Source of the DNA: Bacillota bacterium
GTDB taxonomy: Bacteria > Bacillota > Clostridia > Tissierellales > Peptoniphilaceae
DNA: 64,000 bases
Direction: 5' to 3'
Assembly (NCBI GenBank): GCA_030532225.1
Contig: JAUNLQ010000003.1
Location: 1 to 64,000, forward strand
Position 1 is the first letter of the stretch; every line of letters begins with the position of its first letter. The notes below the pieces were generated by a model. The model was not told the origin of the DNA, made no database searches, and saw only the letters and a list, made by a program, of their open reading frames with translations. A program made the position numbers and the translations under genes. This document shows, one piece after another, positions 9,471 to 17,482 of the stretch.

Positions 9471-10838
9471 TTACTTGTTTAAATTTCTAAGTTCAGGTCT
9501 TTGATCTAATCTTTCTTTCCATAGCTGGTCTGCCCTTGACTGCCAATTTTTAGCATAAGGTTGGCACTTCTTGCACAAATGGTCTGCAGATTCTGGTGCC
9601 TGCATGTCTGTAGATTTGGCTGCACTTGTTTGGACCATGTTATAAAGGGCCTGAGGATTTTCTAACATTGGACAAGGTTGTAAAAGATTCTTGTTAAAGG
9701 GTTGGCCATAGTGGTAAGCCTTAAATAGAGGTGAGTTTAAAGCCTCAAGTAAGGTTTTTTCTCTTATATTAGAATCTGAATAGTGAACAAAGGCACAAGG
9801 TTCATAGTCTCCGTTGGCATTTATGTGCAGGTACCTTCTTCCTCCAGCTATACAGCCTTGAACATATTCTCCATCGTTTTGGAAGTCAACAATAAACAGT
9901 GGATTGTTGGCTCGATAGTCCCTTATCCTCCTATAAACAAATTCCCTTTGATCAGGACTTGGCAAGAGTTCTGGACTTGCATCCATACCTACAGGCATAT
10001 AATGGAAGAACCAAGCAAAGTAGGCTCCATTGGCTGCTATCATGTCCAGGTATTCTTTAGAAGTAATGGCTTCATAGTTCAAGGATGTGTAGCAACAAGA
10101 TATTCCATAAATTAATTTCCTTTCATGAAGAATCTTCATGGCTTTTATAACCTTGTTGTAGACTCCATCTCCCCTGCGCTGGTCAGTGGCCTGGTCAAAG
10201 CCTTCTAGAGAAATTGCAGGGGCAAAGTTTTTTACCCTTAGCATTTGGTCAGCAAAGTCTTCGTCAATTAAGGTTCCGTTAGTAAAGGCTGTAAACATAC
10301 AGTCAGGATGTTTTTCACAAAGATAAATAAGATCATCTTTTCTTACTAAAGGTTCTCCTCCAGAAAATAAATAAGTATAAATGCCTAGTTTTTTTCCTTG
10401 GTCAATAATGTCATCCATTTCTTGGAGACTTAAATTTAGTTTGTTGCCATAGTCTGCAGCCCAACAGCCAGTACATTTTAAATTACAGGCTGATGTTGGG
10501 TCCATTAAAATAGCCCAAGGAATATTACAGTTGTACTTGTCTCTTAGCTTATCTTGGATAGGTGCACTGGCCAAATTAGAATTAATAAAGAAGTTTACGG
10601 CAAAAGTCTTCATTACTTCAGGGTCTATGTCATTAACCACATGGCGAACATATGGATAATAAGGGTCCTCAGGGTCTTCAATAGCCTGGCGAGCCAGTCG
10701 TCTAGGAGTCTCATAGAAACCTGCAGAAAATTTGTCTGCCCAATCCATAAGATCACGTAAACTTTTTTCTGGATCTTCATAAAGATGGTCAAAGGCACTA
10801 GTTAGTCCAAGTTTTGAAAGTTTTGATTTAACAGTCAT
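9471..10838 (-). CDS. Radical SAM/SPASM domain protein
   Basis: A 455-residue iron-sulfur enzyme using S-adenosylmethionine radical chemistry. The cluster-binding CNLKCTGC motif is at residues 118-125, followed by the SAM-binding FSGGEPL. The C-terminal half has a SPASM-like cysteine set (CIAGGRRYLHINANGDYEPC, then CP and CKKC near the end), so extra Fe-S clusters are expected. Such proteins mature peptides or activate enzymes, but no precursor peptide was found next to it and the substrate is unknown. ATG start with AGGAGG upstream. It lies 108 bases downstream of a TetR gene on the same strand, with a perfect 16-bp palindrome in the gap, so TetR control is likely. Confidence 0.85.
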   Translation of the reverse strand: MTVKSKLSKLGLTSAFDHLYEDPEKSLRDLMDWADKFSAGFYETPRRLARQAIEDPEDPYYPYVRHVVNDIDPEVMKTFAVNFFINSNLASAPIQDKLRDKYNCNIPWAILMDPTSACNLKCTGCWAADYGNKLNLSLQEMDDIIDQGKKLGIYTYLFSGGEPLVRKDDLIYLCEKHPDCMFTAFTNGTLIDEDFADQMLRVKNFAPAISLEGFDQATDQRRGDGVYNKVIKAMKILHERKLIYGISCCYTSLNYEAITSKEYLDMIAANGAYFAWFFHYMPVGMDASPELLPSPDQREFVYRRIRDYRANNPLFIVDFQNDGEYVQGCIAGGRRYLHINANGDYEPCAFVHYSDSNIREKTLLEALNSPLFKAYHYGQPFNKNLLQPCPMLENPQALYNMVQTSAAKSTDMQAPESADHLCKKCQPYAKNWQSRADQLWKERLDQRPELRNLNK

Positions 10839-11633: not shown

Positions 11634-12446
11634 TTATACATAAGAATGCAAACTTGGCAAAAGTGTATTCACTCCCACATAGGTAAAGAGCACTGCAAGA
11701 AAACCTAGGATACAAAACCAGGCTGACTTTTGGTCTGCCAGTCCCTTGGACCTTCTTAAATGTAGGTAGATAGTATAAATAATCCAAGTTACTAAGGACC
11801 AAGTTTCCTTAGGATCCCAGGCCCAGTATCTGCCCCAGGATTTTTTGGCCCACAAGGCTCCTGTAATTATGGTCATAGACAGAAATAGAAAGCCTAGGAC
11901 CACAGCCCTGTAAGTTATCTGGTCCAAGTCTTCTTTGCCAGGCAGTCTAGAATCTGGACCATCCTTTTTATTTTGGATCAAAAACATAATGGACGTTCCT
12001 GTTGCAAGAGCAAAGGACCCATAGGCTAATATGGCCAAGGAAACGTGTATAAGCAGCCACCAAGACTTAAGAGCTGGCATAAGGGGCTGGATTTCTTTGT
12101 TGGCCAAGGCTGCATAGCCAATTACTATTAATAGCAAGGGAAGGACAAAGCTACCCATAGAATAATACTTGTACTTGTTTTCAAAAATTATCAAAAACAA
12201 GGCCACTCCCCAGGCAAAGGCTGTTGCAAATTCATATTGGTTGCTTAAAGGCATCCTGGCTGCTGCCAAGCCTCTAACTATTATTGCTGCTGTGTGAATA
12301 AGAAAGCTCAGTCTTAAGGCTACTTGGGCCTTCTTGGCAATTTTTTCATTTTTATTTATATAAGATAAAAAGTATAAGACCATGCTTAGGGCATAAATAA
12401 ATACTGCAAACAAAAACAACTTATCTTCTATTTGGACTAGGGTCAT
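11634..12446 (-). CDS. ccsA: Cytochrome c assembly protein CcsA (ResC/CcsB type)
   Basis: Membrane protein of System II cytochrome c maturation, which carries heme to the outside of the membrane and ligates it to apocytochromes together with ResB. The heme-handling WWD-type segment is present (KKSWGRYWAWDPKETWSLVTW, near residue 205), with about eight transmembrane helices and conserved histidines. The start is the ATG at 12446, which overlaps the resB stop as ATGA and has AGAGG upstream; a longer reading with 20 extra residues lacks support. The position directly downstream of resB and nrfA indicates that its client is the multiheme NrfA. Confidence 0.92.
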   Translation of the reverse strand: MTLVQIEDKLFLFAVFIYALSMVLYFLSYINKNEKIAKKAQVALRLSFLIHTAAIIVRGLAAARMPLSNQYEFATAFAWGVALFLIIFENKYKYYSMGSFVLPLLLIVIGYAALANKEIQPLMPALKSWWLLIHVSLAILAYGSFALATGTSIMFLIQNKKDGPDSRLPGKEDLDQITYRAVVLGFLFLSMTIITGALWAKKSWGRYWAWDPKETWSLVTWIIYTIYLHLRRSKGLADQKSAWFCILGFLAVLFTYVGVNTLLPSLHSYV

Positions 12447-13471
12447 TTCTTTTCCTCTTTCTTTCTTGGTTGATAAAATACCATAAAGCTTCCAAGCATA
12501 AAGCACAAGGCTCCAAGGCCAGTTAAAAGTTCAAAGCTATCCTTTCTAATGTCTAGAATTGGATAGTAGGCAGGATTTGTAAACTCTATTTCATAAGATC
12601 CAACTTGGACCTTGCTTTCAGCTGAGACAAGGTCAGTTTTCACTGCCATAGTGCCTAGGTAGGCTGTGTATTCTAGCATAGGATTTTTTATTAGCTTAGA
12701 ATTATTTATTAGGTCTCCGTCCTTTTCCTTAACATCTGGATAAAATCTGTTAAGCCTTAGGGTCAATCTTCCATCTTCTATGGAAATATATTCATTTTCC
12801 AAAAGGGCAGCCTGGCCAAGTTTTTCTCCATCCTTGAAGACTGTAGCTTCAACATAATAGCCATAAGAAGCCTGGGAAAATTGGTAGCCCTTAATGGTCA
12901 TTGGATGGTTAACAGAAATTTCTCCTTGGTCTAAGAGATTTTTTTCTTGGTCATAAAATTTCACCTGGCTCTTGTACTGGTCAATGTGGCCCTGGTCTGA
13001 AAGGACTAAGTCAAAGTCTAAAATTTCTATGCTTATATCAGTTTCAGGAACAGAACTTAAGGTTCCGCATACATTGTAGACCCTGTTTTGGTAGGCTGTG
13101 GCATTGCCAAGGGCAAAAAATAAAATAAGTAAAATCAAACCTAAATGCAAGAGCCACAGGCCCATATAAGTTAGTCCTTGTTTAAAATTTCTTGTCCTAA
13201 AAATTTTTATTAAAGGCTTTAGCTTAACAACTATACAAAAAAATATAGACAAAGACAAGAAAACTGCCAGCAACAAATACCAAGTAGAAGTATAAAGCTG
13301 GTCCAAATTTAGCCTAAGAATTAAGTCTCCAAAGTTTTCATAAGTGGCCCTATAAAATTCTGGGGCCTGGTTTTGGGGAATAAGACTGCCAATTATAGAA
13401 ACTAGCATTAAGGCTATGAGAATTATTATGGCAAACTTCATTGATGCCAAAATTTTTACTATCTTTTTCAA
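12443..13471 (-). CDS. resB: Cytochrome c biogenesis protein ResB
   Basis: Partner of CcsA in System II heme attachment, a 342-residue membrane protein. It shows the N-terminal helices (MKFAIIILIALMLVSIIGSLIPQ), a second pair around residues 65-125, a large extracytoplasmic domain (about 130-305) and a final helix (LGALCFMLGSFMVFYQPRKK). It is at the short end of the ResB range. The start is TTG at 13471 with AGGAG five bases upstream. It overlaps ccsA by ATGA and follows nrfA across a 66-base gap that contains a hairpin. Confidence 0.9.
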   Translation of the reverse strand: MKKIVKILASMKFAIIILIALMLVSIIGSLIPQNQAPEFYRATYENFGDLILRLNLDQLYTSTWYLLLAVFLSLSIFFCIVVKLKPLIKIFRTRNFKQGLTYMGLWLLHLGLILLILFFALGNATAYQNRVYNVCGTLSSVPETDISIEILDFDLVLSDQGHIDQYKSQVKFYDQEKNLLDQGEISVNHPMTIKGYQFSQASYGYYVEATVFKDGEKLGQAALLENEYISIEDGRLTLRLNRFYPDVKEKDGDLINNSKLIKNPMLEYTAYLGTMAVKTDLVSAESKVQVGSYEIEFTNPAYYPILDIRKDSFELLTGLGALCFMLGSFMVFYQPRKKEEKK

Positions 13472-13537: not shown

Positions 13538-14818
13538 TTATAGACTTTCTATAAGGTCGTTGCCTTCTTTTATTAACTGTTCACAATGGTCAAGGTATTG
13601 TAAGGCCTTGCCTTGGTTGTGGAAGCCTTCAGAATTTTCTACAAATACATAGTCCCAATAGAATTGGGCTTCTCTTTGGATGTCTTGTAACTTTTCTAAA
13701 TTTGTTTCATCTAGGCCACCCATGGCAACTAGGTCTGCTAAATTTAAAATATAGGCTTCTAGGTCCTTGCCTAGGGCATCTGTTCTTTCAACAACTGGCT
13801 TTTGAATACTTTCTGCCATTTTCACAATACTTTCTGCTGTTTGGTCGCTGTGACACTTTAAGCAAGAAGCTTCTGGAGTCTTTAGTGGGCTAGTCCAGTG
13901 ATGGGAATAAATAGTTTCTCCATCTTGGTCCATCCTTGGCATATGACAGGCTAGACAGTCTAGCTTGGCCATTTGGTGAACTGAGCCATTAAAGGTTTCA
14001 GTTTCTGGATGTTGGGCCTTTAAAACTTTGGCTCCTGTAAGCTCATGAACCCAATCATAAAAGCCTAGGTCTTGGTAGTACTTATAGGCTTCATCTGCTC
14101 CAAGGCCTTGAGTCCAAGGAAGCTTTACGATTTTTTCATCAGCAGTCATATAGTATTCCACATGACATTGGGCACAAGAAAGCATGCTGCCCCTTAAATA
14201 ATCTGGATCTGGATTAGCATCTAAGTGGTCTTGTAGGTGCTTTCTGTTAATTTGAACCTTACCTGGAGTGTCTCCATGGCAGTCATAACAAGTAAAGCCA
14301 ACTATGTCTCCATGGGCTTCAATGTATTGGTCAAAGTCCATGGCTGCCAGACTAGGATCCTTTACAAACTCTTCGTTGTAAATAGAAACCTTACAGGCCA
14401 AACATGAGGCTCCAGCCTTTGGTCTTTTTGTGTTCATAACATCTTCTAGGGCATAAACATGGCCTCTGGCCCTGTCGTATTGGTGCTCAAAAACATAACC
14501 CTTGTAGAAGGTTTTTAAGTATGGATATTCAGCTAGATAATCAACTTGAACTGAGCCTCCATAGGTAGTTGCTTCCATTTGGCTATTTTTTTCAAATGAG
14601 GCTACTACAGCTGGAAAGGCTTCCTTATAGTCCTCAACAGGAGCTATGTCCTTTGGAAAGTCCTTAGTGGCCACAACCTTGTCGCCGTCACTTGTAGCTT
14701 CTGTTGGATTTTCACTGACTGGATTTTCTTTTTCAGCCTGGTCCTTAGACCCACAAGCTGTTAAGGCAAAAATAGTAAGTAATAAAATAAGTAATGAAAA
14801 TTTCTTTTTCAATTTCAT
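13538..14818 (-). CDS. nrfA: Pentaheme cytochrome c nitrite reductase, lipoprotein type
   Basis: Reduces nitrite to ammonia with six electrons outside the membrane. The protein has one CxxCK site (C139-C142-K143, the active-site heme with lysine ligand) and four CxxCH sites (177-181, 215-219, 288-292, 319-323), the exact NrfA heme set. Catalytic residues are visible: arginine 118 in RARGHVYAL, tyrosine in CHVEYYM (about 221-222), and histidine 270 in KAQHPE. The N-terminus is a type II signal with lipobox LTAC (cysteine 22), so it should be lipid-anchored. No nrfH (tetraheme quinol oxidase) is adjacent; resB and ccsA are. ATG start with AAGGAGG upstream. Confidence 0.96.
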   Translation of the reverse strand: MKLKKKFSLLILLLTIFALTACGSKDQAEKENPVSENPTEATSDGDKVVATKDFPKDIAPVEDYKEAFPAVVASFEKNSQMEATTYGGSVQVDYLAEYPYLKTFYKGYVFEHQYDRARGHVYALEDVMNTKRPKAGASCLACKVSIYNEEFVKDPSLAAMDFDQYIEAHGDIVGFTCYDCHGDTPGKVQINRKHLQDHLDANPDPDYLRGSMLSCAQCHVEYYMTADEKIVKLPWTQGLGADEAYKYYQDLGFYDWVHELTGAKVLKAQHPETETFNGSVHQMAKLDCLACHMPRMDQDGETIYSHHWTSPLKTPEASCLKCHSDQTAESIVKMAESIQKPVVERTDALGKDLEAYILNLADLVAMGGLDETNLEKLQDIQREAQFYWDYVFVENSEGFHNQGKALQYLDHCEQLIKEGNDLIESL

Positions 14819-14969: not shown

Positions 14970-15257
14970 ATGACTAAAAAAATAGAAAAAAAGAAGGAAA
15001 TTCTAAGACTGATGGTGGAAATTTATAAAAAAGCCCACCCTGATCAAGCTGAAGATCTTTTGGCCTTGGAAACTTATGCCATTGACAAGATGACAAACTG
15101 TCCTAACAAAAACAAAAACATAGTCTGCAAGTCCTGTACCATCCACTGCTACCAAAAAGAACAAAGACAGCAAATAAAAAAGATAATGAGATTTTCTGGA
15201 CCTAGAATGTTGGTCCTTCATCCCATTTTGACTATAGAATATTTTTTTGGCCAATAA
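14970..15257 (+). CDS. ygbA: YgbA-family (nitrous oxide-stimulated promoter) protein
   Basis: A 95-residue protein of the YgbA_NO family. In Escherichia coli ygbA is strongly induced by nitric oxide through NsrR; its biochemical role is not settled. The family cysteine pattern is clear (CPNKNKNIVCKSCTIHCY, residues 49-66), followed by the conserved RFSGPRMLVLHPILTIEY near the C-terminus. The cysteines could bind metal. ATG start with AAGGAGG upstream. It is divergent from nrfA over a 151-base shared promoter region, which fits a joint nitrite/NO response. Confidence 0.85.
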   Translation: MTKKIEKKKEILRLMVEIYKKAHPDQAEDLLALETYAIDKMTNCPNKNKNIVCKSCTIHCYQKEQRQQIKKIMRFSGPRMLVLHPILTIEYFFGQ

Positions 15258-15639: not shown

Positions 15640-16638
15640 TTATTGAAAGGCATCTACAAAGTGATTAATTTCATCTGTTTCTGTATAGATTTCAATTACG
15701 TCAAAGCGTGGTTGAAGGTCTTTATCTTTAGCTTTAAATTGGTAGTAGTATTCTGCTGCCTTTTTTATTTTTCCTTGTTTTATTGAGTCAACTGCTTCTG
15801 CCCCATAGCCGTAGTTGGCGTTTTTTCTTTGTTTCACTTCTACAAAGACCAAATAAAAATCTTTTCTAGCTATTAAGTCAATTTCCCCTTCATTGTGGAA
15901 GATAAAGTTTCTGTCTATAATTTTATAGCCCTGGGCTTCTAAGTAGGCCTGGGCTTTTTCTTCTCCCTGGTCTCCTAGTCTTTTGGCCTCGTCTTCCCAC
16001 TTTTTCATGTTCTTTAAAAAGCTTCTTCTGTGAATTGGACTTGGCCCTAGGTCTATGAGAGCCTGTCTGTGGGCCTTGGTTCCATAGCCCTTGTGCTTGG
16101 CAAAGCCATAGCCTGGATAGGCCTCTTCATATTGCTGGCAAAGAACATCATCCCTATAAACCTTGGCCAAAATCGATGCACAGCCAATGGAATAACACTT
16201 GTCGTCACCCTTGGTTAGGGACACAGTTTCTAGGTGGCTTGCTATTTTCACTGAGTCTACAAGGACCAGGTCTGGCTCAATGCCCCTGTCCCTTAACTTG
16301 CTTTCTAAATCCTTCAAGGCTTTTTCCATAGACAGTTTGGTGGCCTGGAGAATATTTATCTTGTCTATAACTTGGGCCGAGGCTCCTGCTAGGGCAAAGT
16401 CCACTGTTCCTTCTTTGATCTTGGTGGCCAGGTCTCGTCTCTTTTTCTCTGTTAATTTTTTTGAGTCCTTGACTCCAGCTATTAGGCCTAGGTCGTGGGC
16501 TGACTCATTAATTTGACCAAAGTCAACACAAACTGCAGCTGCCACCACGTCTCCTGCCAAGGGTCCCCTGCCAACTTCGTCAATGCCAATTATATATCTT
16601 TTGCCTTCTTTGTAATAGGCTAGTTCTATATCAAACAT
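15640..16638 (-). CDS. rnhB: Ribonuclease HII fused to a YraN-family nuclease-like domain
   Basis: A 332-residue two-domain protein. Residues 1-200 are ribonuclease HII, which removes ribonucleotides and RNA-DNA hybrids, with the GIDEVGRGPLAGD motif and further acidic residues in LVLVDSVK and LAKVYRDD. Residues about 215-332 form a YraN/UPF0102 domain of the PD-(D/E)XK type, with the catalytic-like GEIDLIARKD and VFVEVKQRK. These two are normally separate neighbouring genes. The ATG at 16638 overlaps the ylqF stop by 8 bases and has GGAG upstream; an ATG 48 bases further upstream lies inside ylqF and is less likely. No frameshift is needed to join the domains. Confidence 0.93.
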   Translation of the reverse strand: MFDIELAYYKEGKRYIIGIDEVGRGPLAGDVVAAAVCVDFGQINESAHDLGLIAGVKDSKKLTEKKRRDLATKIKEGTVDFALAGASAQVIDKINILQATKLSMEKALKDLESKLRDRGIEPDLVLVDSVKIASHLETVSLTKGDDKCYSIGCASILAKVYRDDVLCQQYEEAYPGYGFAKHKGYGTKAHRQALIDLGPSPIHRRSFLKNMKKWEDEAKRLGDQGEEKAQAYLEAQGYKIIDRNFIFHNEGEIDLIARKDFYLVFVEVKQRKNANYGYGAEAVDSIKQGKIKKAAEYYYQFKAKDKDLQPRFDVIEIYTETDEINHFVDAFQ

Positions 16639-17482
16639 TAGGTTGCTCCAAGGAAATTCTGCCAATATTGGCCTTCCTAAATTCATCTAGGATTATATCT
16701 GTAACACGGGTGTAGTCAATTTCATTGCCCCTCATAATGGCCCCTCTCTTCCTGGCAATTTCTTCCATAGTCTCTAAGGGTCTATCTTGGATTTGGATTT
16801 TGAATCTAGCTTCTAAAAGGTCTGGATAAAGGTCTGACAGCCTTTCAACTAATTTCAAGGCCACATCCTCCCTAGGCAAAACTTCATCCTTAATAGAACC
16901 AATATAGGCTAGGTGCAAGGCCTGTTCTTCAGTTTCAAACTTTGGCCACAAAACACCTGGAGTGTCTAAAAGCAAAAGGTCGTCGCCAACTTTTATCCAT
17001 TGGTTGGTCCTAGTTACACCTGGAGTGTTGCCAGTTTTGGTAGACTTTCTTTTGGCTAAGGAATTTATTAGGGTAGACTTGCCTACATTGGGAACGCCAA
17101 TAATCATGGCCCTAACCTGCTTGGAGATTATGCCCTTTTCTCTGTCCTTGGCTCTCTTGTCTTCCATTTCTATGTGAACCTGTTTTAAAAGGTCTGGAAT
17201 TCCCTTGCCTGTGTTGGAATTTAGCTCTACAACAGCAAGGCCCTTGGACTTATAATAGGCCAGCCACTTTTTGTTAGTTTCAGGATCTGCCAGGTCTGCC
17301 TTGTTGAAGATTAAAATCTTTTTCTTGTCTCCTAACAGCTGTCCCAGCAAGGGATTTTCTGTAGCCCTTGGGGCCCTAGCGTCAATTAGCTCAAAGGCCA
17401 GGTCTACTTTTTTTAAATTTTCTTTAATGGACTCTGAGGTCTTTTTCATATGACCTGGATACCAGTTTATATTTAAGTTCAT
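16631..17482 (-). CDS. ylqF: Ribosome biogenesis GTPase YlqF (RbgA)
   Basis: A 283-residue circularly permuted GTPase needed for late assembly of the 50S ribosomal subunit. The permuted order is visible: NKADLAD (G4) near residue 60, then the P-loop GVPNVGKSTLIN (about 128-139) and DTPGVLWPK (G3, about 173). The N-terminal INWYPGHMKKT motif is typical of RbgA. Coupled to rnhB-yraN by an 8-base overlap. ATG start with AAGGTG upstream. Confidence 0.95.
   Translation of the reverse strand: MNLNINWYPGHMKKTSESIKENLKKVDLAFELIDARAPRATENPLLGQLLGDKKKILIFNKADLADPETNKKWLAYYKSKGLAVVELNSNTGKGIPDLLKQVHIEMEDKRAKDREKGIISKQVRAMIIGVPNVGKSTLINSLAKRKSTKTGNTPGVTRTNQWIKVGDDLLLLDTPGVLWPKFETEEQALHLAYIGSIKDEVLPREDVALKLVERLSDLYPDLLEARFKIQIQDRPLETMEEIARKRGAIMRGNEIDYTRVTDIILDEFRKANIGRISLEQPNV

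Follow-up and report, generated by a model that had tools for sequence, protein, structure and literature searches.

Genes and features of the locus

The gene under study lies in the window, i.e. the whole 64,000-nucleotide stretch of DNA that was analyzed. Its open reading frame occupies positions 13538-14818 of the minus strand, exactly the interval given in the sequence-only reading; read on the plus strand, this interval contains many stops. The features of the locus are given below (residue numbers are those of the nrfA product).

11634..12506, minus strand: ccsA/ccsB, System II heme lyase subunit (PF01578; TIGR03144, 251 bits against a cut-off of 188)
12443..13471, minus strand: resB, System II cytochrome c maturation (PF05140, E=3.7e-38)
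13538..14818, minus strand: nrfA, pentaheme cytochrome c nitrite reductase, 426 aa (PF02335, solved relatives, fold match)
13850..13864, minus strand: heme motif CLKCH, residues 319-323 (sequence)
13913..13936, minus strand: loop R295-T302 at the NrfH-docking signature positions (D. vulgaris Tyr323/Lys331), signature absent (sequence)
13943..13957, minus strand: heme motif CLACH, residues 288-292 (sequence)
14162..14176, minus strand: heme motif CAQCH, residues 215-219, followed by E221 and Y222 (sequence)
14276..14290, minus strand: heme motif CYDCH, residues 177-181 (sequence)
14390..14404, minus strand: catalytic heme motif CLACK, residues 139-143 (sequence)
14753..14818, minus strand: type II (lipoprotein) signal peptide, lipobox L19-T-A-C22 (sequence, and a lipobox in 21 of 21 NrfH-less NrfAs of the order)
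14970..15257, plus strand: ygbA-like gene, nitrous oxide-stimulated promoter family, YgbA_NO (PF11756, E=1.4e-27; NF007714 above cut-off)

The nrfA product matched PF02335 with E=1e-78 in a family profile search. Its best solved relatives were NrfAs from two Desulfovibrio species, D. vulgaris and D. desulfuricans (D. vulgaris NrfHA, PDB 2vr0/2j7a: E ~1e-49 to 1e-48). A model was calculated in AlphaFold2 from an 11-sequence alignment and was of modest quality (mean pLDDT 64, pTM 0.66); its top structural match was 2j7a (Z 22.4, 326 residues, rmsd 5.0). The complete heme pattern and catalytic residues reported in the sequence-only reading were all present. The catalytic CXXCK and four CXXCH sequences constitute the five covalent heme motifs of an NrfA, and the catalytic arginine, tyrosine, and histidine (R118, Y222, H270) are kept along with the heme-ligand lysine (K143) and the Ca2+-site residues E221, K267, and Q269. 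The catalytic and Ca2+-site residues predict that the protein is a genuine ammonia-forming NrfA.

The same reading had placed resB and ccsA after nrfA, and family profiles identified both, on the same strand; System II (Ccs/Res) maturation is thus represented by ResB and CcsA together. The true start of ccsA is probably at 12446, overlapping the resB stop. Either resB or resB-ccsA directly followed nrfA in 18 of the 21 NrfH-less loci of the order; of the remaining three, one is truncated by the end of its contig, and the others have nrfA by itself.

Absent from the earlier reading was the ygbA-like gene, which is divergent from nrfA and begins 151 bp from the nrfA start. The same divergent arrangement occurs in Tissierella sp. 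P1. In enteric bacteria, ygbA is a member of the NsrR/NO regulon (PMC5320621, PMC1274295). Among the relatives, a ScdA/RIC repair gene was located directly upstream of nrfA (L185) or a few kb away (L184), and a Crp/Fnr regulator gene was near nrfA in two loci (L029, L055). The NO-stress neighbors ygbA and ScdA/RIC suggest a protective role for NrfA. They also bear on whether the physiological substrate might be something other than nitrite, such as NO, hydroxylamine, or sulfite: NrfA enzymes reduce all three (PMC8840924), and the divergent neighbor is an NO-response gene. However, every catalytic and Ca2+-site residue of the nitrite-reducing NrfAs is kept, and such a substrate was considered improbable.

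A search upstream of nrfA for a CRP/FNR/HcpR-type site gave one near match, TTGATATTTATTAA (P ~0.03 by shuffling, with several motifs tried); it was not conserved in relatives and was dropped. Regarding recent plasmid carriage, a plasmid collection yielded no near match to the nrfA locus. Two other frames of the window, both on the minus strand, were recorded. The 348-aa frame at 15640-16686 appears by eye to be a fusion of RNase HII with a YraN/UPF0102-like domain. The frame at 9471-10838 encodes a 455-aa radical SAM/SPASM protein whose best NCBIfam match was NirJ2 (heme d1 type), at 87 bits and thus far below the 500-bit cut-off.

Predicted membrane anchoring

The N-terminus of the window NrfA, MKLKKKFSLLILLLTIFALTAC, constitutes a type II signal in which Cys22 closes the sequence FALTAC, and lipid anchoring had been predicted earlier from this LTAC lipobox. 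Because 21 of 21 NrfH-less NrfAs of the order carry a lipobox, the one in the window is not due to chance, and anchoring via Cys22, as predicted from these N-termini, is well supported. Lipoprotein NrfAs in Firmicutes were already predicted in 2012, in company with NrfH (PMC3475470). The lipid anchor is ordinary; the independence from NrfH is the new part.

A link between the lipobox and NrfH loss was entertained and rejected: many other lipobox-bearing NrfAs of Firmicutes adjoin nrfH, and several NrfH-less NrfAs use a membrane helix instead. Since the members of the NrfH-less clade described below are anchored by either a lipobox or an N-terminal membrane helix, the lipobox was taken to be a retention device and not a mark of NrfH loss.

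Absence of NrfH across the lineage

The sequence-only reading had stated that no nrfH adjoins nrfA and had proposed a genome-wide search for one. That search covered the whole assembly (1.43 Mb, 73.6% complete) and found no NrfH/NapC-type gene (PF03264). The adjacent gene is indeed missing, and its absence extends through the lineage and to the docking residues of NrfA. NrfA was found in 14 of 130 genomes of the family; NrfH exceeded the cut-off in none of the 130, of which 108 are at least 90% complete, and several sub-threshold NrfH matches fell within NrfA itself. At the level of the order, NrfA was present in 22 of 249 genomes and NrfH in one (G149). The nrfHA genes of G149 (L191, G149:C140) resemble the Bacteroidota (Tannerella) type and share their contig with Hcp and an integrase-like gene. 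Because of the Tannerella-type nrfHA and the integrase-like gene alongside it, this contig is probably contamination.

NrfA loci were then gathered phylum-wide, with a match in 96 of 398 genomes, and a maximum-likelihood tree was calculated from the 96 sequences. The window NrfA was among 38 rows separated from the rest by a split supported at 99/90. No tetraheme NrfH gene was found near nrfA in any of these 38 (within 3.2 kb where the contig allowed), and most of the other 58 rows do have nrfH near nrfA. For tree rows outside the order, the check for NrfH covered only the nrfA neighborhood, not the whole genome. In nearly all partnered loci, nrfH directly adjoins nrfA. As judged from these genome sequences, the loss of NrfH appears to be real and lineage-wide, a conclusion that is well supported.

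A docking signature in NrfA

An unbiased column scan identified five positions that are near-invariant in NrfH-partnered NrfAs and less than 30% conserved in the NrfH-less clade. Three of them (R225, G213, and L198 in D. vulgaris numbering) were rejected as docking marks, because NrfAs without NrfH in other parts of the tree retain them. The other two, D. vulgaris Tyr323 and Lys331, lie in one loop and are also lost in NrfH-less NrfAs elsewhere in the tree. Residue 331 of D. vulgaris NrfA is taken here to be the lysine that ligates an NrfH heme. The NrfH heme that is ligated by a lysine of NrfA is the one passing electrons to NrfA (PMC8840924).

The Tyr323 position was occupied by Tyr in 49 of 50 NrfH-partnered rows versus 0 of 44 NrfH-less rows, and the Lys331 position by Lys in 50 of 50 versus 6 of 44; none of the six NrfH-less rows that keep the loop Lys has the Tyr. 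The combined signature was thus present in 49/50 partnered and 0/44 NrfH-less rows. Two signature-bearing loci (L208 and L221) had an overlapping nrfH upstream on a wider look and were counted as partnered. The window NrfA has Arg295 and Thr302 at these positions.

Because the signature columns were chosen from the same data, the weight is carried by held-out loci and solved structures. Seventeen loci were held out, some of them close relatives of loci already used. Of these, 12 combined the signature with sufficient upstream sequence, and every one of the 12 had nrfH; neither of the two pentaheme NrfAs without the signature (L281 and L282) was accompanied by nrfH; the rest were two octaheme enzymes and one locus cut at a contig end. 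Among solved NrfAs, those of Wolinella succinogenes, Geobacter lovleyi, G. metallireducens, and both Desulfovibrio species have both Tyr and Lys. The E. coli enzyme, whose partner is NrfB, has neither, and that of S. oneidensis, whose partner is CymA, has no Tyr. An independent-pair test on the tree agreed in three of three pairs, a number that cannot reach significance. The Tyr/Lys signature provides a sequence test of whether an orphan nrfA expects NrfH.

These results bear on the possibility that the locus belongs to an ordinary NrfHA system whose nrfH resides in the quarter of the genome that the assembly does not cover. The incompleteness of the assembly would allow it. Against it stand the empty family-wide search, the confinement of NrfH in the order to G149, the missing Tyr and Lys in the window NrfA, and the habit of nrfH to lie directly beside nrfA; a hidden nrfH was accordingly deemed highly improbable. 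That the window encodes an NrfH-independent lipoprotein NrfA is held with high confidence.

Cytochromes and quinone

Within the family, ResB was found in exactly the 14 NrfA-bearing genomes and in none of the other 116. In the window's own assembly, 100 of 101 CXXCH-coding DNA sites were read in frame, and labels were assigned by eye from the sequence. The sites other than those of NrfA were in radical-SAM-type proteins, a PheS-like protein, a zinc-ribbon protein, and short, probably spurious frames. No second multiheme or NrfB-like cytochrome was encountered at these 100 sites of the 73.6%-complete assembly, in which NrfA appears to be the sole c-type cytochrome. As a separate observation, a 460-aa protein with about 20 heme motifs is encoded in another genome (G295, L267:4099-5481), at a distance of a few kb from an nrfA without nrfH; G295 also carries an NrfH-partnered nrfA (L213).

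UbiA/MenA was absent from 12 of the 14 NrfA-bearing family genomes, including that of the window, and also from G001, a complete genome of the same genus; it was found in 14 of 14 control genomes. The exceptions were G011 and G016. In G016 (L173:437-3040), genes for a polyprenyl diphosphate synthase, UbiA, and a MenG-like methyltransferase occur in a row. The NrfA of the window lineage probably works without quinone; quinone is not absent throughout the lineage. A quinol pool could feed NrfA via a different membrane protein (e.g. an NrfCD-like or cytochrome b-type oxidoreductase), and the two UbiA-bearing relatives, one with the clustered genes just described, are consistent with this arrangement. 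It was nevertheless viewed as unlikely, given the lack of UbiA in the other 12 genomes and G001 and of an NrfB-like cytochrome in the assembly.

Members of this fermenter family present an NrfA that is apparently their only c-type cytochrome, with its own heme-attachment pair, no NrfH, and mostly no quinone route. Because the lineage is without NrfH, its surface contacts and, mostly, a quinone-making enzyme, electrons must reach NrfA by an undescribed route. How a six-electron reductase at the outer face is fed without a quinol pool is now a testable question.

Proposed electron donor

A flavin-type donor had been raised in the sequence-only reading, which also proposed looking through the genome for FMN-binding extracytoplasmic proteins. 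The search found an Rnf operon that includes RnfG, along with two FMN_bind lipoproteins (120 aa and 261 aa, the latter with a TSCPD domain) and one membrane-anchored FMN_bind protein. Candidate donors are thus present, but a connection to the enzyme did not emerge: FMN_bind proteins were found in 19 of 19 genomes tested, whether or not these have NrfA, and because every NrfA-less relative tested has them, nothing ties them to NrfA. Neither operon structure nor co-occurrence linked an FMN-binding protein to NrfA, and none of the 21 loci of the order had a flavoprotein donor gene beside nrfA. An unusual pairing was noted on contig C13 of the same genome (L003:753-2112), where a twin-arginine-like TSCPD protein is directly followed by an FMN_bind+TSCPD lipoprotein; the pair is possibly an outer-face redox module.

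The enzyme might have no dedicated donor at all; it would then scavenge NO and nitrite at the outer surface and be reduced slowly by free flavins, thiols, or sulfide. Such a role would fit the NO-response neighbors and the lack of a linked donor gene. As a weak argument to the contrary, an enzyme that is consistently membrane-anchored and inherited together with its maturation pair would be expected to occupy a set position in an electron chain; a donorless enzyme was rated a serious but rather unlikely alternative.

With a second cytochrome lacking and quinone probably absent as well, an outward-facing flavoprotein is the simplest donor, and there is precedent for flavinylated proteins as the donors of extracytoplasmic reductases of other kinds (PMC8238504). 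By this analogy, RnfG or an FMN-binding lipoprotein is tentatively favored as the donor. In the proposed mechanism, the organism, a Gram-positive fermenter, would export NrfA and retain it through the lipid on Cys22 on the outside of the cytoplasmic membrane, where the cell's own ResB-CcsA pair would attach the hemes of the enzyme. Reduced ferredoxin or NADH would drive the Rnf complex, and its outward FMN subunit, RnfG, might pass electrons directly or via a small FMN-binding lipoprotein to heme 2 of NrfA. NrfA would then form ammonium from nitrite (and from NO or hydroxylamine), serving as an electron sink and a defense against nitrosative stress.

The compound statement, that an NrfH-independent lipoprotein NrfA is served by a flavin route, was given slightly less than an even chance. 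With somewhat more reserve, we propose that a separate clade of membrane-anchored NrfAs in Firmicutes may bypass quinol and take electrons from extracytoplasmic flavoproteins, namely RnfG, FMN-binding lipoproteins, or both. If true, this would add a fourth way of delivering electrons to those via NrfH, CymA, and NrfBCD, and two NrfA residues would suffice to recognize it. The findings also suggest that ammonification or NO defense has been overlooked in anaerobic Gram-positive cocci.

Comparison with known systems

A 2025 review gives NrfH, CymA, and NrfB(CD) as the sole partners of NrfA, all of them quinol-linked (PMC12285233). No prior description of this NrfH-less clade or of the Tyr/Lys signature was found among the open papers examined.

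The D. vulgaris NrfHA complex (PDB 2j7a, 2vr0) shares with the window the catalytic-subunit fold, the five hemes, the catalytic residues, and the Ca2+ site, at ~32% identity in the structural alignment of the NrfAs. The D. vulgaris NrfA precursor likewise contains a lipobox-like sequence, in its case AGC. However, D. vulgaris has NrfH along with Tyr323/Lys331, whereas the window has Arg295/Thr302 and no NrfH. The NrfAs of Bacillus azotoformans and Desulfitobacterium hafniense (PMC3475470, PMC3306737) are likewise predicted to be lipid-anchored in a Gram-positive cell; these organisms have nrfH in the operon, and the window lineage does not. In the nrfH-nrfA-resB-ccsA operons of Syntrophomonadaceae (L034-L037), nrfA is followed by resB and ccsA, as in the window, but nrfH is directly upstream, NrfA is anchored by a membrane helix, and the docking Tyr/Lys are present.

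The E. coli NrfABCD system resembles the window in having an NrfA without NrfH and a loop without the docking Tyr and Lys. It differs in its possession of NrfB, as the window genome shows no NrfB or other c-type cytochrome, and in maturation, for which the window has System II genes and E. coli its nrf maturation genes. A 2014 paper recorded orphan NrfAs in some genomes from the gut (PMC4257093), and these, like that of the window, are encoded without co-localized membrane components. They belong to other taxa and were described by co-localization only, whereas the NrfH independence of the window lineage draws on whole-genome searches and the docking-site analysis.
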